Positions 27,770-59,645 of a stretch of 64,000 nt of DNA are shown in pieces. The notes beneath the pieces were generated by a model. That model made no database searches. It had not been told where the DNA came from and saw only the letters and a list, made by a program, of their open reading frames with translations. Source of the stretch: Paraburkholderia phytofirmans OLGA172 (GTDB taxonomy: Bacteria; Pseudomonadota; Gammaproteobacteria; Burkholderiales; Burkholderiaceae); contig NZ_CP014578.1 of the NCBI RefSeq assembly GCF_001634365.1, forward strand, positions 1,612,001 through 1,676,000. Direction: 5' to 3'. Made by a program: the position numbers and the translations under genes. Each line of letters starts with the position of its first letter. Position 1 is the first letter of the stretch.

Positions 27770-28541
27770 CAGGCCTCCAAGCTCGCCCCGTTTGCGCTCA
27801 TCTAGGTGGCGCAACATTCTAGCCTTTCCGCAGCGAGAAATGAGGGTGAACTGAGACGGACGGCCAGGCGCGTCTCGGAAAGGCTGAATCAATATGATCT
27901 GGCCAAAAAAAAGCCGACCGCGTAGGGGTTGGTTAAAAAATTCTGACCATTCCGAGGGCCGTGTCAGAACCTGAGAGATGCGCACTATGCCGCAAACCGA
28001 CACAGCAAAGGCAAAGGCTGGTCGGATCAAGCAAGCACGCTGAATAGGTGCGCCGACAAGCCGGCGTACCTTCTTTATGCCAACCGGTCGCTGGTCGACA
28101 GCAGGGGAACTGCGGACCAAAATAGACAGAGCGACGTGCTCTCGCCTTTATAGACCAATTCGCTCGGTTTCGTCTGCACTGGCGCCCGACATAGAGCCGC
28201 GGCGTCGTACCGACCTCGGCGCGCTATAACGTCGTGAGTTTTTGGCAGGATTGCATCATGACACTTGCCCGGCACCATGGCCGGTGCAATAGGCATTCTG
28301 ACTTTCGTCGCGGTTGCGGTTATGAGCGGTACCGTCTTGCCCAACACCTCATCAGCGTTGTCAATTTCCGCCACGCGCAGAATGTCTGCCAGTCCCCAGC
28401 ACCGGTATCCGTTGCGATCACGGTGCCTCTATCTGCGGTAGTTACTAGCGTCGTCTTGGTCAACGTTGCACGAGGGGTCGTGCGCCAGCCTTGGGTGCCG
28501 GCAGTCGCGGGTGGCCCGGTATCGGCCTTTCACGACGTAAA
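27770..28541. other. decayed intergenic stretch
   Basis: No gene can be supported. An imperfect hairpin at about 27908-27936 is followed by eight T residues on the minus strand, so it may terminate leftward transcription. A hydrophobic plus-strand stretch starting with MAGAIGILTFVAVAVMSG at 28277 could be a transporter remnant. Confidence 0.3.
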
Positions 28542-28796: not shown

Positions 28797-29199
28797 TGTA
28801 CCAAACCATCGCCCGCTCTCCACGAACCCCCATTTTCTTGTTGTTGGCCGGCATGAGTTCGGCTATGTGGCACAGCACATTTACCGGACTAAATGGTTGT
28901 CGCCGTCTACACGAGGCACAGATGCAGATCTCCCCGGGTATTGCGCACCCACCGTCACGCTTATGCCTGTTGGATATGCGTCCCGGCGTTCCGTACAAGT
29001 ATTGGGCTTTGATGACTTTCGACATCTCACCCCGCCAGGTCGCCTCGTATCCGCTTCCTGTTCGTCAGGCCAGCGCTTTGCTTCCGGCTTCCTCCAGATT
29101 CGCAGTCACCCGCGACACCCTTGCCATCCGCTAGCTCTTCCCCTTGTCGGGCGAGCAGAGGACTTTCACCTCCAAGTGAGTGCGCCCTGCCGGGCGTAC
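28797..29199. other. non-coding stretch downstream of the porin gene
   Basis: About 400 bases with no supported gene. It ends in a stem GTGCGCCC-TGCC-GGGCGTAC (29180-29199) directly beside the porin terminator. Confidence 0.35.
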
Positions 29200-47188: not shown

Positions 47189-50140
47189 TTACATCTCGCC
47201 TCGCTCGGGGCGCTCTACCATGCTCAGGATGGCATTTGACTCGTATTCCCTGGCTAACTCATAAATTTTCTCGACGAAGGGGCGATACGCGACATTGCAT
47301 TCGCCTATTTTCTGGGCCCATTGCATGATGTCACGCATGTTTCCTCTTTGCGCGAGTTCTCGAAGAGTTTCCATCTCGTCAACGGGTGGGATAGCGAGCG
47401 GCTTTCTTGATGAAGCGCGCGGACGGTATCCGTGAATCGGATCGGCAGTCCACGTCAGGCCCAGGAGCACTTCGATTTGAGCCAGCAGGTGACATAGGTC
47501 GACGGGTTTTGGGATCACAGTATCGACCGCGGCCGCAACGTCATTCCGCTCTACGTTGGAGGACGAATGGTTGGACACAGCAATGATAGGGGTTGTCACG
47601 AGGCCCGCCCGTTTGCGCAGGGTACGCACAGTTCGCGGCCTGACAATTCCATTGGCGGCGCTCTCGACGAGAACCAGGTCCGGCATGATGGCCTTGGCTT
47701 TTTCCAGTGCCTGCGTACTGGGGGTTCGCGTGACCTCGAAGCCCAGCGATGCCAATGCCTGTGTCACGTTCGACGAATCTTCCGGAAACTCTTCAACAAC
47801 GAGAATCTTCCTACGCGCCCCGGAGTATCCCGTTATCTTGCGTGCCCCCGACAATGCCTCGCCAACGACGTTCATCGGCACGTTCAACTCGAACCAGAAC
47901 GTGCTGCCATGGCCAGGCTGACTGACTACCTGAATCTCCCCCCCCATTGACTGCACCAGTTGGCGGCTGATGGCTAATCCGAGCCCGGCGCCGCCTGGGC
48001 GCCACTGCGGCTCGCTGGTCAGGCCGAACGGTTCGAACATTGCCTGCAATTGATGGGCGGCAATCCCCACTCCTGTATCGCGCACCTCGAAACGAAGTGT
48101 TCCGGCGGGTGATATGGCGACGTGCAGGCATACTTCGCCACTGTCCGTGAAATCGACCGCGTTTGAGAGCAGGTTGATCAAAATCTGCCGTAGTCGCGTC
48201 TCGTCCGCGCGAATACCACACGGCAGCCCGGGTCCGAGGTCGCACACGAACGCCAATCCCTTTTGCTCAGCCTTGACTCCGATTATCTCTGCCACTGTCT
48301 CGAACAAGTTCGCCAGCACAATGTTCGAGATGCGGAGATCGAGCCTGCCGGCTTCAATTCCCGCGTAATCAAGCGTGTTGTTGAGCAGATTCAACAAATG
48401 TTGTCCGCTTTGCTGAATCGCGCGAAGTGACTCGCGTTGCGGATTTTCCGGCGTTGCGCCACGCAATAGGATTTGTGTATATCCAAGAATCACGTTTAAC
48501 GGTGTCCGCAGTTCGTGGCTCATGTGGGCCAGAAGCTCACTCTTTGCCCGGCTCTCAGCATCCGCAGCCCGTCTTGCCTCATGTTCCGCTTCGGCCATCT
48601 TGCGTCCGGTGATGTCAATTACCGTGCCGACGTATTCGTCGGTATCTTCACCGTCCCGCGTAAGCGGGTGGCCTACGGAGTGGAGGTACTTGATGGATCC
48701 GTCCGGTAGAGCAACGCGAAATTCACACTCGAAGCCTGTTCGTTCGAGAATGGCGGACGCAATGGTGTGCCGAGTGGACTTGCGGTCGTCAGGATCGATG
48801 CGGCTCCAGAAAAATTCAATATCGGGCTCTACCGCTCCAGGTTCAAGTCCAAGAATCCGGTAGTACTCGTCGGACCAGACGAGCTTCCCTGTCGGCAGAT
48901 TTAATCCCCAACTGCCCGTATGGCTGATCTTCTGTCCCTCCGCCAAAAGAGCTTCACTAAGATGGAGTTTTTCTTCTGCAAGCTTCTGGTCAGTAATATC
49001 TCTCGTTACGCAAAGCACACACGGTTGAGATCCCACTACCACTTGTGCCGCCGACACTCTTCCCACGCGCGTCTCTCCGCGCTTCGTGCGAAAGCGGATT
49101 ACTTCGGCCTGGGCATCGCCGTCGCGGAGCAGACGCTCCAACAGTTCTCCGTGCTTGACGGTGTCTACAAACAAGTTGAGGTCGTCGGTGGTTTGTCCGA
49201 GAACCTCTTGAGCTGGGTAGCCCGTGATACGTGCGAATCCAGGGTTCACCTCGATGAACCGGCGATTTCCAAGTTCGCAGAGTCCGATGGCGTCGGGGAT
49301 CGAACGAAACATGAGTTCATACTTTTCTTCAGAATGTTTTAGCTCATCTTCTGCGCGCTTACGTAGTGTGATGTCCTCACATACTACAAGGACAACAGGT
49401 ACATTGTGACGCGAGACAGCCTTCGCACTCTCACGAACCCACAGCACGCTCCCGTCCTTACGGATTTTTCGAAACTCCCAGGTCATTGGCTGACCGAGGT
49501 GTGCGAGACAAGCCGCGAAATTGCTGGCCACGGCGTCGCGATCTGGTTCGTAGAAGACGCTCAATAACTGGCAGCCGATCAGCTCGCTAACCTCATATCC
49601 GAGTTGCTCGGCCCCGAACGGATTGACGGCCAGGATTGTTCCATTGGCGGCGACCATGAAACACATCGTAGGGTTATTTTCAAATACGGTCCGCCATTGC
49701 TCGTCGTTGCTGTGTAGCGCGTCTTCGGTCGTGGCTTGCTGTTCGCCGCGGGTTGCCACGCCCCGATCGGTCTGTTTCGACTTTGGATGGCGGCGCATGA
49801 GATCTTTGATGATACTAGCGAAATCACCCAATGCATCTTGCGCCACGAGAAATTGGGACGCGCCAAGGATGACAACAAGTGGGCTCTTTACATCCCGAGT
49901 TCGGCGATACATTCTGCGCCATGCATTGAACTCGTTCGCATTCACAGAACGCCTGTTCAGCATGATCAGGCGCGGCGACACGCGTCTGACGACGCGTGTC
50001 GCCTCCTGACGAGTGGACGCGAATAGAATCTGAAAGCCCCGCGCCCCCAGTTGCTGTACCGTCGACGCTATGCGGGTCAACATATTGCCAACGATGACTA
50101 TAATCGGCCCGTCGGTGAGCCGCGATTTGGTAAGGCTCAT
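47189..50140 (-). CDS. hybrid sensor histidine kinase with three PAS domains and degenerate receivers
   Basis: 983-aa soluble kinase. N-terminal residues ~10-115 have a receiver-like fold but lack the acidic pair and the phosphoacceptor (LIMLNRRSVNANE). Three PAS domains follow (~145-265, 270-395, 400-520). HisKA has the phospho-His in ELLAHMSHELRTPLNVILGY. HATPase_c has N-box INLLSNAVDFTDSG and G-boxes RDTGVGI and GGAGLGLAISRQL. A second receiver (~770-885) has EEFPEDSS instead of the Asp pair and LVLVESAANGI where the phosphoacceptor Asp is expected, though the Lys remains (VIPKPVD). A C-terminal helical domain (~915-975, MRDIMQWAQKIGECNVAYRP) is shared with the kinase at 57650-59645. The SD is GAGG. 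It may be a kinase controlled by pseudo-receivers. Confidence 0.92.
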   Translation of the reverse strand: MSLTKSRLTDGPIIVIVGNMLTRIASTVQQLGARGFQILFASTRQEATRVVRRVSPRLIMLNRRSVNANEFNAWRRMYRRTRDVKSPLVVILGASQFLVAQDALGDFASIIKDLMRRHPKSKQTDRGVATRGEQQATTEDALHSNDEQWRTVFENNPTMCFMVAANGTILAVNPFGAEQLGYEVSELIGCQLLSVFYEPDRDAVASNFAACLAHLGQPMTWEFRKIRKDGSVLWVRESAKAVSRHNVPVVLVVCEDITLRKRAEDELKHSEEKYELMFRSIPDAIGLCELGNRRFIEVNPGFARITGYPAQEVLGQTTDDLNLFVDTVKHGELLERLLRDGDAQAEVIRFRTKRGETRVGRVSAAQVVVGSQPCVLCVTRDITDQKLAEEKLHLSEALLAEGQKISHTGSWGLNLPTGKLVWSDEYYRILGLEPGAVEPDIEFFWSRIDPDDRKSTRHTIASAILERTGFECEFRVALPDGSIKYLHSVGHPLTRDGEDTDEYVGTVIDITGRKMAEAEHEARRAADAESRAKSELLAHMSHELRTPLNVILGYTQILLRGATPENPQRESLRAIQQSGQHLLNLLNNTLDYAGIEAGRLDLRISNIVLANLFETVAEIIGVKAEQKGLAFVCDLGPGLPCGIRADETRLRQILINLLSNAVDFTDSGEVCLHVAISPAGTLRFEVRDTGVGIAAHQLQAMFEPFGLTSEPQWRPGGAGLGLAISRQLVQSMGGEIQVVSQPGHGSTFWFELNVPMNVVGEALSGARKITGYSGARRKILVVEEFPEDSSNVTQALASLGFEVTRTPSTQALEKAKAIMPDLVLVESAANGIVRPRTVRTLRKRAGLVTTPIIAVSNHSSSNVERNDVAAAVDTVIPKPVDLCHLLAQIEVLLGLTWTADPIHGYRPRASSRKPLAIPPVDEMETLRELAQRGNMRDIMQWAQKIGECNVAYRPFVEKIYELAREYESNAILSMVERPERGEM

Positions 50141-51544: not shown

Positions 51545-52360
51545 CTAGAGGGTGTTAGGCACCTGGACAGCCGGCGCGACATGTACAAGCATGAGCATGG
51601 CGAAGACAACAAAGTGCAGGCCGGCTAACGTTTCGGGCAGACGTTCGTAGTCTCGCGCCAGTCGCCGGAACCGGTTGAGCCAGCCGAAACTACGCTCGAC
51701 AACCCATCGGCGCGGCAGCAGCACGAAGCCCTTCTTTGCCTCTGGCAGTTTGATAATCTGCAGTTCGATGCCTTCGTCATGCGCAGCCTGTCGAGCCGTA
51801 TCACCGGTATAGCCTTGGTCAGCGAATGCAAGCTTTACCGTCTGACCGGTTGCTTGCTGAACCTGACGGGCAAGCTCGGCTACCTGTGCGCGCTCCTGCT
51901 CGTTGGCCGGCGTGATGTGCACCGCCAGCAACAAACCTAACGTGTCGACAGCCATATGGACTTTGCTGCCTCGCTTGCGCTTATGACCGTCGTAACCCGC
52001 GCGCGGTCCGCTCTCGCAGGTGGACTGCAGAGTGCGCCCATCCAGAATCACCGCACTGGGCTGGCCCTGACGCTCCTGCGCGACCCGAATTACGGATCGC
52101 AGATCACTGACCATTGCCTCGAAGCAGCCCGCGTTCAACCAGCGTTGCGTTTGCTGGTAGACCAACTCCCATGGCGGAAAATTGGTCGGCAGCATACGCC
52201 ACGACGCACCCGCCCGCGCCATCCAGCGCAACGCATTGAACATCTCGCGCAGTTCATACCGCCGCTGTGGAGCATCTTCATTCATCAACGTTAGATAGGG
52301 AGCGGCAAAGCTCCACTCTTCATCCGAGACATCTGTCGGGTATGGCTTGCGTTCTGTCAT
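51545..52360 (-). CDS. IS5-family transposase (DUF4096/DDE type)
   Basis: 271-aa single-ORF transposase. N-terminal DUF4096 is YPTDVSDEEWSFAAPYL. The DDE domain has Asp in AVILDGRTLQSTC, Asp in KLAFADQGYTGDTARQA, and Glu in PRRWVVERSFGWLNRFRRL, with the ending LARDYERLPETLAGLHF. The start is ATG 52360 (GGCGGA upstream); the frame is open into the inverted repeat. The TAG stop is completed by flanking bases: the element supplies CTC and the target TA plus a host G supply the stop. Intact and probably active. Confidence 0.9.
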   Translation of the reverse strand: MTERKPYPTDVSDEEWSFAAPYLTLMNEDAPQRRYELREMFNALRWMARAGASWRMLPTNFPPWELVYQQTQRWLNAGCFEAMVSDLRSVIRVAQERQGQPSAVILDGRTLQSTCESGPRAGYDGHKRKRGSKVHMAVDTLGLLLAVHITPANEQERAQVAELARQVQQATGQTVKLAFADQGYTGDTARQAAHDEGIELQIIKLPEAKKGFVLLPRRWVVERSFGWLNRFRRLARDYERLPETLAGLHFVVFAMLMLVHVAPAVQVPNTL

Positions 52361-52403
52361 TCCGCCAGGGTACCAGGTCTGGCGAAAAGTGCCTAACACC
52401 CTC
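51548..52403 (-). mobile_element. IS5-family insertion sequence, complete (856 bp)
   Basis: Perfect 15-bp terminal inverted repeats: GAGGGTGTTAGGCAC (51548-51562) and GTGCCTAACACCCTC (52389-52403). A TA dinucleotide flanks each end (51546-51547, 52404-52405), consistent with a 2-bp target duplication. Confidence 0.88.
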
Positions 52404-52421
52404 TAGCCTAGCTAGTGTCAA

Positions 52422-52733
52422 GTGCGGCGATCAAGGTTTGGAGAGCTGCAGAAAATATATCGCGTGGCACACTGGCTGAACTTTTGCGCTCCCCTCAACG
52501 CCATTCTCGGTCATGCGCAAGCTTTAATGCGCGAGCCTTTCCTCGTCGAACAGCATCGCGACGCATTGAAAGTCATATTGCGCAGCGACGAGGACCTGCT
52601 CGTGCTCATCAACGATGTACTGGACTTCGCCAACATCGAAGCGAGAAAAATCGAGTTAGTCCCGGCTGATGCCGTATATAACGAGCGAGCCGGCGGACTA
52701 TCGGACGGGTTCGAAACGCAACGGCATGCGTAG
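52422..52733 (+). pseudogene. histidine kinase remnant (HisKA dimerisation helices)
   Basis: The frame reads CAPLNAILGHAQALMREPFL, VEQHRDALKVILRSDEDLLV, LINDVLDFANIEARKIELVP. It is the second half of a HisKA domain, about half identical to the same region of the kinase at 57650-59350. The phospho-His motif is gone (WLNFCAPLN instead of HELRTPLN) and no ATPase domain follows. It is a leftover of a third kinase of this family. Confidence 0.72.
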
Positions 52734-54642: not shown

Positions 54643-56040
54643 ATGCACCAACCATCGCGGAAACGAGGCGATGTGCTCCTTGCCGCCAAACTCGCGTTCT
54701 CGGATAGCAAAATGAACTCCACCGTTGCCGCTGAGAATGTCGACCCAACATCGACGTCGCATCGTCGGGAGGTTGGATGGCTGGGTTTGACCGCAATTGC
54801 GACAGGAGGCGCGAATTCGGTACTGTTTTTCCTGGCGGCAATGTTCGTCGGAGACGGCGCTATTCGCGGCCAGGGAACAGCAGCGGTGCTTGTGTTGGGC
54901 CTCGGCGTGATACTCAGCTGCGCCGCCGCGCCGGGATGGCTAGAACTGGTTCTGATGTATCCGAACCGGGTTGGAGGCATCGCAGCAGCATGTTCGGAAG
55001 CATTTCGACCATATAGCCCAATCCTGAGTAGCCTCGTGGGTATTGGCTATTGGTTCGGATGGGCGCCGGTTGTGGGACTTGGGGCTGTTCTCTCGGGCGG
55101 TCTCCTTCACGACTTGCTGTTGCCGCTTGTTTCGGCGACAACTCTGGCGCTCGGCATTATTTTGATATGCACGGTTGTCAGCCTATGCGGCCTTAGATGG
55201 TTAGTATGCCTTTGCGTAGTGAGCGCAGGCGTGGCTACCGTGCTAGCGATGCTGTCGGCCGTCGGTCCGCTGTCAGGTGCCGTTGAATGGCATCGGACAG
55301 TCGACTTTCGGCTAACGGTGCCATTTCCTGGTCCGTTCGGCGCTTTCGTTAGCACTTTGGCTGGCTTGTACCTGGTAGGGACGGTTGCGCCGGCATTTGA
55401 AGTCGCTCTAGGCCTGGTGGGGGTCACAAAGGCGCCCATCACGAATGTCTCCCGTGCGCTCTGGGCCGGCGCATGTTTCGGGGTATTGTACTGCCTAGTT
55501 CTGCCGATCATCTGGGTGGACACGCTAGGGCCGGCAGCGTTGAAGGAAGACCTTTCTATTGCTTTGGGTCCGACATTCGCGCCATTGTTGGGGGGCGTCG
55601 CAAAGACCGCGGCGACCTTGTTCATGTTATTCATCGGGTTAGTCGCGACGATAGTTCCGTTCGCCGGACCGACGCGCATACTGTCGCAATTGGCCGACGA
55701 CGGACTGCTTCCAGCGGTGTTCGCCAAGCGGGCACGCGGCGGTGCACCGTGGGTCGCTATCATCCTGACGTCGGCTACCGGTTGCGTGATCGTCGTCGGA
55801 GGGTATCCGATTTGGTTGATCGCCGCGGTGAGCCTACCGTACGTCCTTTGCATCGCACTCACCAGCGTTGCGGTTTGGCTGCTGCGCCGAACAGCTCCGG
55901 ATATGACCCGTCCGTACAGGGCACCGCGGGTAGCGATCAACCTCGGGATCGTGGCTGCTTTCGGCTGGGGGCTGGCGGTAGTGTTCGGCCTTCAGCAATT
56001 CGGATTGCCTTCCGTCATGCTTGGCATTTCATTTGCCTAG
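54643..56040 (+). CDS. APC-family permease, N-terminal half of an IS-split transporter-kinase
   Basis: 465-aa membrane protein of the amino acid-polyamine-organocation type with about eleven to twelve hydrophobic segments (VGWLGLTAIATGGANSVLFF, GIGYWFGWAPVVGLGAVLSG, VSTLAGLYLVGTVAPAFEVA, FMLFIGLVATIVPFAGPTRI, GIVAAFGWGLAVVFGLQQFG). It ends LGISFA-stop, where the TAG is formed by the target TA and the first G of an IS1182 element. Removing that element (56040-57682) and one TA joins the frame to the kinase as LGISFAYLGAVFYLWRKITD. So this is the transport domain of a fused sensor resembling CbrA in design. ATG 54712 is an alternative start. The permease half alone may still fold. Confidence 0.85.
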   Translation: MHQPSRKRGDVLLAAKLAFSDSKMNSTVAAENVDPTSTSHRREVGWLGLTAIATGGANSVLFFLAAMFVGDGAIRGQGTAAVLVLGLGVILSCAAAPGWLELVLMYPNRVGGIAAACSEAFRPYSPILSSLVGIGYWFGWAPVVGLGAVLSGGLLHDLLLPLVSATTLALGIILICTVVSLCGLRWLVCLCVVSAGVATVLAMLSAVGPLSGAVEWHRTVDFRLTVPFPGPFGAFVSTLAGLYLVGTVAPAFEVALGLVGVTKAPITNVSRALWAGACFGVLYCLVLPIIWVDTLGPAALKEDLSIALGPTFAPLLGGVAKTAATLFMLFIGLVATIVPFAGPTRILSQLADDGLLPAVFAKRARGGAPWVAIILTSATGCVIVVGGYPIWLIAAVSLPYVLCIALTSVAVWLLRRTAPDMTRPYRAPRVAINLGIVAAFGWGLAVVFGLQQFGLPSVMLGISFA

Positions 56041-56208
56041 GAGTGCGTCGGATTTGAGATGAGGGGTGAGTGCGGGCACCAGGTGATGAGTGGGTTTGCG
56101 CGGGTTTGCGGACTCACCTCGGTCGTAAAGCGCTACAAAAGGTATTTGAGCGTAGATCGGGAAGGCAATCTCGGCGATGGGGGGCGGGCAAAAAGCCCGC
56201 TTATCGCC

Positions 56209-57597
<1,389 letters not shown>

Positions 57598-57649
57598 AGG
57601 ACTCTCTCAGCGAACTTGTTGATTCATTAACGCTCAACCCGCCCGCCGG

Positions 57650-59350
57650 ATGACCGCCTATCCCGAAAATCCGACAGGCTCCTATTTAGGCGCTGTGTTT
57701 TACCTTTGGCGCAAAATTACCGACCGGCGCAAGAGGGGCCTGCGGGCAATTTCATGGACACTCCATCTCAAACTTGCCAGCGCGATGCTACTCGTTCTCG
57801 CGCTGGACGCGGTAGGCTATCTGAATGCTGTTTACCATGTCTCGGCCAACGACAAAGCACTTTTGGCGATACTCGCCATCATCTTTACCGTCGTGGCGTT
57901 GCTGACAATCGCGGTCGGACTTATTCTACCGGGCGTGATTTCGTATGCGGCGATTGAGGTCTCCGAAGCCGCGGACCATCTTGCGGGTGGCACGTTGGCC
58001 GATTTTTCGCGTGCAATGCTCGCCTTGGCGGCCTCTGACCTCGAGGAGGCCCGGGTCAAGCTGGACTTCACGCCCGTTGTTGTGCGTTCGCGGGACGAAG
58101 TGGGCGACATGGCCAGTAGCTTTAACAGACTTCAGCAAGAAATCGCGAGAGCGGCGCGTGGCTTGGACGGAGCACGTGAGGGATTACGCGAAGCGCGGCA
58201 CAGTCTTGAACAGCGAGTCGAAGAGCGTACCCAGGCCGAGCGCGAAGCCCGACAGGCAGCCGACGCCGCGAACCGCTCGAAGGATCAGTTCCTCGCAAAC
58301 ATCAGCCACGATCTGCGTACTCCGCTGAACGCCATACTAGGTTACACGCAAATACTATTGCACGACGATAAGCTGACTGAGCGCCAGGTTAGCGGGCTAA
58401 AAGTCATCTCGCGCAGTGGCGAGCACCTGCTCTCGCTGATCAATGATCTTTTGGACTTCGCCAAGATCGAAGCCAGAAAGCTTGATTTGGATCCAAGGGA
58501 CGTTGCGGTGGCGGCTTTCCTGTCTTCCATTGCCGAGATAGTGAGTGTGAGGGCCGCTGAAAAGAACCTTGATTTCGAGTTCGTGTGCGCGCCGAACCTC
58601 CCGTCTGCTATCCGCGCGGATGAGAAAAGACTGCGCCAGGTCCTGCTGAATTTGTTGGATAACGCCATAAAGTTTACGAAGACAGGCTATGTACGCTTCA
58701 GCGTGACCTTTACGCCACCGGGAACGCTCTGCTTTGAGGTTGAGGATACCGGGATCGGCGTCGAGTCGCTCGAATTGGATACTATCTTCGCCGCGTTTGC
58801 GCGAGGGCAGAACGGACGTGTGCCGGCCGCTGGCACGGGCTTGGGCTTAGCTATTTGCCGTGACATCGTGCGATTGATGGGCGCTGAGATACACGTGCAC
58901 AGTCAGGTCGGGCAGGGCAGTTGCTTCTGGTTCAAACTCGAAACCACCGTATCGGCTGCGCCTCTTGCTACCGTAAATCCCTCATGGATCATCACGGGCT
59001 ACAAGGACGAACGCAAGAAAGTCATGGTGGTGGACGACGTACTTGACAATCGCGCCGTGCTCGTCGACATGCTTACCCCGCTGGGCTTCGTGGTGACCGA
59101 GGCGAAGGACGGTGCGGATGCATTAGAAAAGGCATCCGCCCAAGTACCCGACCTCGTCCTGGTTGATTTGGTGATGCCCGACATGGATGGCTTGGAGACG
59201 ATCAGGCGGTTACGCTGCATGCGGACTCTCGAAGGCACACCGGTTATCGTCGTTTCAGCAAGCGCGTCGCGCGACGATTCGATCGTCAGCCTCGCGGGGG
59301 GGGGCGAATGCGTTCCTCGCAAAGCCGATCGTTCTGGACTTGCTTCTTAG
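57650..59350 (+). CDS. hybrid histidine kinase, C-terminal half of the split transporter-kinase, frameshifted in the receiver
   Basis: 566 codons are readable. The first 11 codons are IS1182 sequence; genuine sequence begins at 57685 (YLGAVFYLWRKITDRRKRG). Two further membrane helices follow (LHLKLASAMLLVLALDAVGY and AIIFTVVALLTIAVGLILPG), then a HAMP-like segment (~150-190). HisKA has the phospho-His in QFLANISHDLRTPLNAILGY. HATPase_c has N-box LLNLLDNAIKFTKTG and G-boxes VEDTGIGV and GTGLGLAICRDI. The receiver has MVVDDVLDNRAV and phosphoacceptor Asp in LVLVDLVMPDMDGLETIRRL. Within the receiver a G9 tract (59296-59304) shifts the frame just before the conserved Lys, ending the protein early. 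No start codon with an SD exists, so translation is doubtful. Confidence 0.82.
   Translation: MTAYPENPTGSYLGAVFYLWRKITDRRKRGLRAISWTLHLKLASAMLLVLALDAVGYLNAVYHVSANDKALLAILAIIFTVVALLTIAVGLILPGVISYAAIEVSEAADHLAGGTLADFSRAMLALAASDLEEARVKLDFTPVVVRSRDEVGDMASSFNRLQQEIARAARGLDGAREGLREARHSLEQRVEERTQAEREARQAADAANRSKDQFLANISHDLRTPLNAILGYTQILLHDDKLTERQVSGLKVISRSGEHLLSLINDLLDFAKIEARKLDLDPRDVAVAAFLSSIAEIVSVRAAEKNLDFEFVCAPNLPSAIRADEKRLRQVLLNLLDNAIKFTKTGYVRFSVTFTPPGTLCFEVEDTGIGVESLELDTIFAAFARGQNGRVPAAGTGLGLAICRDIVRLMGAEIHVHSQVGQGSCFWFKLETTVSAAPLATVNPSWIITGYKDERKKVMVVDDVLDNRAVLVDMLTPLGFVVTEAKDGADALEKASAQVPDLVLVDLVMPDMDGLETIRRLRCMRTLEGTPVIVVSASASRDDSIVSLAGGGECVPRKADRSGLAS
59296..59304 (+). repeat. G9 homopolymer causing a frameshift
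   Basis: Nine consecutive Gs within the receiver domain. With eight Gs the frame would read SLAGGANAFLAKPIVLDLLL, restoring the conserved receiver Lys and the 3' domain. Slippage or a sequencing error could each explain it. Confidence 0.8.
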
Positions 59351-59645
59351 CGCGATCGCCGGCCTGCTCGCGTTGCAATGGATCTATGCGCCGGCTCCTT
59401 CTCCGCTCCTCGACGAGATGGCACGCGAGCCGATGCGTTTTCCTTCACCAGAGCGTATGACAGTCTTATGTCGTCTGGTGCAGATCGGCAACATGCGTGA
59501 CGTCGCTCAATGGACTGAGCAAATCGCGGCTCTTGACCCGGGATATCGACCGTTTGCCAATCAGATATTCGCCCTCGCAAAGCGCTATGAATGTCAGGAG
59601 CTTCTAAAGCTCGTTAATCGCTACGTCACCTCGCCTGAAATGTGA
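59305..59645 (+). pseudogene. hybrid kinase 3' end (receiver tail and C-terminal helical domain), out of frame
   Basis: Continues the receiver (ANAFLAKPIVLDLLLSAIAG with the conserved Lys), then a helical domain MTVLCRLVQIGNMRDVAQWT, EQIAALDPGYRPFANQIFAL, AKRYECQELLKLVNRYVTS. This domain closely parallels the C-terminus of the 983-aa kinase at 47189. It is separated from the rest only by the extra G in the G9 tract. Confidence 0.82.

Follow-up and report, generated by a model that had tools for sequence, protein, structure and literature searches.

What gene once stood at positions 54643-59645 of the window, where an amino acid permease-like open reading frame (ORF) ends at the left edge of an IS1182-type element and a histidine kinase ORF resumes at its right edge? 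The window is a 64,000-nucleotide stretch of the Paraburkholderia phytofirmans OLGA172 genome (contig NZ_CP014578.1, positions 1,612,001 to 1,676,000; the assembly comprises 8.57 Mb in 5 contigs and is rated 100% complete), and all coordinates are given relative to its first letter. The 16S of this genome shares 97.8% identity with Paraburkholderia sp. PGU19, 97.4% with a Caballeronia and no more than 96.7% with the Burkholderia records listed. In our reading, to which we assign a probability of about 0.8, the locus is a disrupted sensor gene whose N-terminal unit (an APC permease, a two-helix hairpin and a HAMP domain) belongs to a widespread family and would act as a transceptor feeding exchangeable outputs. 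The parts of the locus are as follows.

54712..56037, + strand: APC permease half (Pfam AA_permease, 26.9 bits; database entry P0121); the frame is open from 54643 and the start is probable.
56040..57682, no strand assigned: IS1182-family element with terminal inverted repeats and TA on both sides.
56209..57597, - strand: IS1182-family transposase ORF of 462 amino acids, with about 72-73% DNA identity to the annotated IS1182 transposases that it overlaps.
57683..58177, + strand: end of the last APC helix, two-helix hairpin and HAMP (at most 68% identity to the APC-kinase family over 165 residues; HAMP match).
58178..59350, + strand: HisKA, HATPase_c and the start of a receiver, up to the frameshift stop (Pfam and motif check; 53% identity to the comparison kinase L170).
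59296..59304, + strand: nine-G run where the frame of the receiver shifts (frame and Pfam match break here).
59305..59645, + strand: receiver end and C-terminal helical tail, in the other frame (17 plasmid-record matches).

The permease frame stops at 56038-56040, the first base of the 1643-bp element supplying the last base of the stop codon, and the kinase frame runs uninterrupted from 57683 to a stop at 59350; the exact fit of the two frames to the element ends, from which the original prediction started, is thus observed on both sides. The kinase ORF as listed begins at an ATG at 57650, within the element's right end. The element ends agree at 13 of 16 positions, and a related copy in P. 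graminis (L051) likewise has a TA at either end. Within its own genome the element gives a single DNA-level match.

The present two-ORF arrangement, and nothing more, is what could be cited for two unrelated neighbour genes that flank an insertion by chance. The permease and kinase pieces were searched apart by BLAST, never joined, in a set of 126 sequences made up of 120 proteins from the database and the ORFs of six relatives (of these, the L044 ORF was wrongly extracted and remained unmatched). Both pieces match 125 sequences, to which the permease half is 49-56% identical, and they abut with a gap of 0 in 124 of them and a gap of 145 in one. This abutment indicates that the halves derive from one ancestral ORF and refutes a chance juxtaposition, to which we attach virtually no credence. 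As far as sequence can tell, 54643-59645 is thereby confirmed as one ancestral gene cut by an IS1182-type element, which is what had been proposed. The intact single-ORF homologues that the proposal called for also exist. The permease lies in open frames of 1087-1317 amino acids in 5 of 58 other relatives and of 1193-1324 amino acids in 6 of 143 other genus members (44-53% identity), three genomes being common to the two counts; with open frames of 1087-1324 amino acids in relatives, it is not the case that the homologues are always encoded as two separate proteins.

The domain order given by the original prediction (APC permease, hairpin, HAMP, HisKA, HATPase, receiver, helical tail) holds as well. 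The part described there as HAMP-like was correctly placed and needs a firmer label, since it is a HAMP domain proper, scoring 27.4-35.5 bits in five intact relatives and 23.7 bits in the window, just below the cut-off of 25. The start had been set at 54643. It is more probably at 54712, because the database entry for the window's own permease protein (P0121) has 442 amino acids, i.e., it starts at residue 24; the length of 1119 codons proposed for the rejoined gene would then be too long.

The kinase half retains its H, N, G1 and G2 boxes and the receiver Asp in a motif check, and with HisKA, HATPase_c and a receiver it has the composition of a hybrid histidine kinase, the receiver being cut by a frameshift. 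The match to Pfam Response_reg covers positions 1-89 of 111 only and ends at the nine-G run (59296-59304), just where a frame break had been foreseen, and the remainder of the receiver continues in the other frame up to 59645. This frame-shifted C-terminal piece matches 17 plasmid records of Paraburkholderia and Caballeronia; in the ten listed of the 17, the matches cover residues 41-147 or 149 of the 59187-59642 frame at 38-44% identity, and in the record whose gene table was viewed (L167) the match is the very end of an annotated kinase. Because the receiver match breaks at 89 of 111 and the rest, in another frame, resembles the C-terminal end of a Paraburkholderia kinase, the gene carries two lesions, the frameshift inside the receiver being the second unless the nine-G run was misread. 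Homopolymer runs are prone to sequencing error and one assembly only is available for this locus; a frame change of that origin, which would leave the insertion as the sole real lesion, is the less probable alternative, albeit one to be taken seriously. The locus itself is a dead gene, an ordinary pseudogene. Since a search of the OLGA172 genome found no second copy of the APC-sensor gene, the sensor pathway is probably silent in this strain.

What survives elsewhere is a unit consisting of APC permease, two-helix hairpin and HAMP, joined in frame to an output domain. A five-unit profile search of genome contigs returned 124 relatives, of which 80 were kept. The unit is free of stops in 77 of the 80 named loci, and 73 of these ORFs are closed; all but one of the 73 (L068) extend for at least 240 further residues. 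The remaining three units (L100, L106 and L121) have stops in the matched frame, reflecting real decay or assembly errors. With the unit of one relative as query, 7999 proteins were scored and 1915, fused or not, matched at E 0.001; the 120 of these that were listed share 77-100% identity with that unit, and GGDEF and EAL are present in two (P0093 and P0103). Going by the titles of their records, the relatives found by the profile span about eight phyla, the names given being Verrucomicrobia, alpha-, beta- and gammaproteobacteria, Myxococcales, Omnitrophota, Herpetosiphonaceae, Armatimonadetes, Actinomycetota and Dormibacteria; many of these records are metagenome bins whose single assignments may be wrong. 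A scan of 70 C-terminal parts gave HATPase_c in 46, HisKA in 37, a receiver in 32, GGDEF in 24, EAL in 22, Hpt in 8, HisKA_2 in 4 and HD_5 in 2. By these matches the permease-hairpin-HAMP unit is a widespread family and nearly always the N-terminus of a signalling protein, whose output may be a histidine kinase, a hybrid kinase or a GGDEF/EAL or HD-GYP-type protein, these having been exchanged for one another. The finding is thus larger than first thought, the unit being common to cyclic di-GMP (c-di-GMP) enzymes as well as kinases.

A tree of the unit with 71 labelled tips (46 kinase and 25 c-di-GMP, assigned by motif; 11 of 82 were unclear) requires at least 7 switches between the two kinds of output. 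With shuffled labels the mean is 20.7 switches and the number never falls below 14. Output type thus tracks lineage for the most part, yet has been swapped several times. Other unit comparisons used 74 of the 77 stop-free named units together with the window permease (L058, L062 and L069 left out) or 70 of the 77 (L058, L062, L068, L069, L086, L105 and L133 left out). At five loci (L063, L064, L065, L069 and L071) the C-terminal part after the unit is short, and a large related protein encoded on that strand comes directly after it, with small overlaps; the large protein downstream of L063 contains a receiver-like stretch.

How might such a unit work? If the APC-fold permease is a transceptor, a small solute would be bound, and perhaps carried, in the central pathway of the LeuT fold. 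The change between outward and inward states would then move the two-helix hairpin, and HAMP would turn this movement into a change of the output domain. A hairpin followed by HAMP is a standard input-coupling arrangement. Alternatively, the APC part might be a real transporter regulated by the cytoplasmic domains, or a mere membrane platform, with the signal read elsewhere, by PAS or another partner. The kinase CbrA offers a precedent, in that its SLC5 domain transports histidine and is not essential for signalling (PMC7096432). PAS models match 20 of the 70 C-terminal parts. On the other hand, the window and four of five relatives have no PAS between HAMP and output, the coupling arrangement just mentioned is in place, and one and the same unit precedes unrelated outputs; we regard a transporter or platform without input function as unlikely.

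Several points weigh against the transceptor reading. In the work on CbrA (PMC7096432), the transporter domain proved dispensable for signalling, although it seems to modulate the autokinase; the activities tested did not respond significantly to the substrate. A transporter fold is therefore no proof of a sensor. The close tie between output type and lineage described above counts in the same direction, as does the state of the window permease, which, having lost 39 of 164 residues conserved at 95% or more in the family, may have come to bind another ligand, or none, before the element inserted. Finally, our search found no published test of any family member.

The transceptor reading naturally raises the question of the ligand. 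The window and five relatives match Pfam AA_permease or AA_permease_2, with no SSF listed at E 0.001, and PDB profile matches are to xCT, y+LAT, LAT1, 5oqt and 6f2g (E 5e-14 to 3e-4); on these matches the permease is classed as a member of the APC family. The best-scoring named permease model in the window and the four relatives scored is NF053774 (NCBIfam, tmoP, trimethylamine N-oxide (TMAO) permease), with 121.6 bits vs 63.1 for the next model in L038, 117.2 vs 52.2 in L129, an intact protein of Paraburkholderia kururiensis, and 76.3 vs 37.4 in the window. This model matches 75 of 75; so do two other APC models, whose best E-values are weaker. Its cut-off is 690 bits, and the four relatives reach 110.7-130.2. 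Matches above the cut-off lie in frames of 536-828 amino acids. OLGA172 itself has a TMAO-permease-like protein in a separate 570-amino-acid frame (C1:2824165-2825784), which scores 831.7 bits.

TMAO permease shares with the units the motifs C..W..W.P in transmembrane helix (TM) 3 and FE.A.C in TM6, whereas its TM1 and TM8 motifs are unlike theirs. In a tree of 16 of the 77 units and 7 TMAO-permease-like loci, it groups with the units as against 11 other APC-family proteins of the OLGA172 genome (split support 0.998, midpoint root). Because the NF053774 scores, that of the window included, fall far below 690 and the TM1 and TM8 motifs differ, a methylated amine is a lead for the ligand, not a result; the original suggestion of an amino acid or amine gains no support. 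It would follow the lead furthest to propose a widespread, unnamed class of bacterial transceptors, in which an APC cassette serves phosphorelay and c-di-GMP signalling in many phyla with a methylated amine or N-oxide, not an ordinary amino acid, as ligand. We consider that full proposal doubtful.

In LeuT-fold transporters TM1, 3, 6, 8 and 10 line the central pathway, and the placing of conserved residues in the family counts in favour of a transceptor. Residues conserved at 95% or more account for 84 of 170 positions in TM1, 2, 3, 6, 8 and 10 vs 32 of 125 in the other six helices (p 4e-5), or for 71 of 143 vs 45 of 152 with TM2 regrouped (p 5e-4), helix boundaries and grouping having been chosen after the counts were known and hydropathy alone having left some helices unresolved. 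Gene neighbourhoods, reaching about 6 kb or less per side in most loci, contain no recurrent catabolic or transport neighbour that could be recognised among 82 loci, although four of the five clusters were not put to a family search. These five clusters each reach at least 3 loci, and the representative of the largest (17 loci) starts like a receiver protein. Close same-strand neighbours number 70 ORFs at 54 loci, 69 of which were scanned (one very long ORF was left out). A receiver is present in 19 of the 69 vs cNMP_binding in at most one, which speaks against Crp/Fnr as a recurrent neighbour, an idea raised with the original prediction.

The window copy differs from the rest of the family in its kinase half. 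While the hairpin-HAMP stretch resembles the APC family at up to the 68% given above and has no match in two comparison kinases (L170 and L167, chosen as top matches of the plasmid collection), from residue 166 of the kinase piece onward it is APC-free Paraburkholderia kinases that match best. As the kinase half is 53% identical to L170, and 54% to L167 over a shorter stretch, vs 39% to the closest of the APC-kinases compared, the window copy is best read as a mosaic, which would have arisen by domain exchange within or near the genus. Other kinases lie close by. One, at 47192-50140 (- strand), is a PAS hybrid kinase in one open frame, with 45% identity over 348 residues in its HisKA-HATPase-receiver part; it reads VESAANG where the receiver of the locus reads VDLVMPD, so that the phospho-acceptor Asp seems to be lost. 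At 51545-52733, an IS5-family transposase ORF adjoins a HisKA fragment 53% identical over 74 residues to the kinase of the locus, probably a second broken kinase.

The permease half has diverged as well. Median identities of the window to the family are 51% for the permease and 55% for hairpin-HAMP, vs 70% and 60% for family pairs (85 units, with at least one contig entered twice, as L039 and as the GGDEF-EAL member L080). Many of the 39 lost residues fall in TM3, TM6, TM8 and TM10, and the same scoring counts 7 of 173 lost in L135, 11 of 172 in L101, 2 of 169 in L066 and 1 of 166 in L119. L055, an intact one-frame APC-kinase of the same genus that belongs to another clade, lacks 31 of 175 invariant residues and is a possible sensor with an altered site. 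Invariant losses in the window, 39 of 164 in the permease and 6 of 47 in hairpin-HAMP, do not differ significantly (Fisher p 0.16). The difference in identity, permease minus hairpin-HAMP, has a median of +9.7 points in family pairs (5th percentile +1.8, minimum -10.5) and ranges from -13.3 to +1.8 for the window against the family, the pairs not being mutually independent; this comparison points toward greater divergence of the permease than of hairpin-HAMP in the window.

Rooted with TMAO-permease-like proteins, the family tree has the window as a long basal branch (support 0.845 for the other 85 units; 0.877 for the corresponding split in the smaller tree of 16 of the 77 units), a placement to which long-branch attraction possibly contributes. 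Retention of TmoP-like ancestral states was considered as a source of the lost residues and mostly rejected, 5 of 28 informative lost sites matching the TmoP consensus. A first contig scan with the window permease found no relative, and the closest protein besides its own entry, among 8000 candidates scored (about 256-814 amino acids only), is 55% identical. In 398 other genomes of the order there are 3 matches at E 1e-40, all at about 50%, and no close relative of the window variant.

One could still imagine the halves working apart, as a free permease of about 442 amino acids and a kinase started from the ATG at 57650 in the right end of the element. That ATG does have an open frame behind it, and the kinase half keeps its catalytic boxes. 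Yet the receiver is broken by the second lesion, the permease half lacks 39 of 164 invariant residues, and the unit is fused in 72 of the 73 closed named ORFs, all of which makes continued function of the separate halves quite improbable. Farther away, the window has matches to a group II intron (RF02001) and the Burkholderia sRNA ncS54 at 28944-29115 and 27905-27981 (both - strand).

How does the disrupted sensor compare with known systems? The Ssy1-type sensors of yeast use an APC fold as receptor; they are eukaryotic and are not known to have a fused kinase or cyclase. The SLC5-STAC kinases (CbrA, CrbS/MxtR, RpuS) are like the APC family in carrying an N-terminal transporter domain on a kinase. 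They differ in that the domain is SLC5/SSF there, whereas the match here is to AA_permease and these proteins do not qualify as SLC5; in that CbrA has STAC where the APC family has a hydrophobic hairpin and HAMP (no STAC match is listed in the relatives; whether Pfam has a STAC model was not checked); and in that outputs of the APC family include c-di-GMP enzymes. SLC5-STAC kinases are described as having a LeuT-fold transporter domain N-terminal to the histidine kinase, some with a C-terminal receiver (PMC13022988, PMC7918813), and in CbrA and its relatives SLC5 is coupled through STAC to the kinase (PMC13022988, PMC7918813, PMC7096432). CbrA is termed a transceptor (PMC13022988, PMC7918813, PMC9100948), a rare one according to PMC13022988, and the LeuT fold is given as common to SLC5 and APC transporters (PMC7918813). 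In LysP-CadC of E. coli an amino acid permease informs a regulator (PMC6978683); these are two separate proteins, in contrast to the single fused protein here.

Among the papers listed, none was on an APC-kinase fusion by title or abstract start, and since most subscription journals were outside the search, this silence is weak evidence for absence. Source databases name the relatives "amino acid permease", "amino acid transporter/signal transduction histidine kinase" or simply as a kinase, so that the coupling of permease to output is easily missed.

The value of the OLGA172 locus is as a pointer to a large, little-noticed class of sensors built on an APC domain, with outputs that are exchangeable. 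Should the APC version work in the way proposed, a single cassette derived from a transporter would serve kinases as well as c-di-GMP enzymes across several phyla. Natural pairs with a common input and different outputs would then allow one to ask whether the signal is driven by transport or by binding alone.

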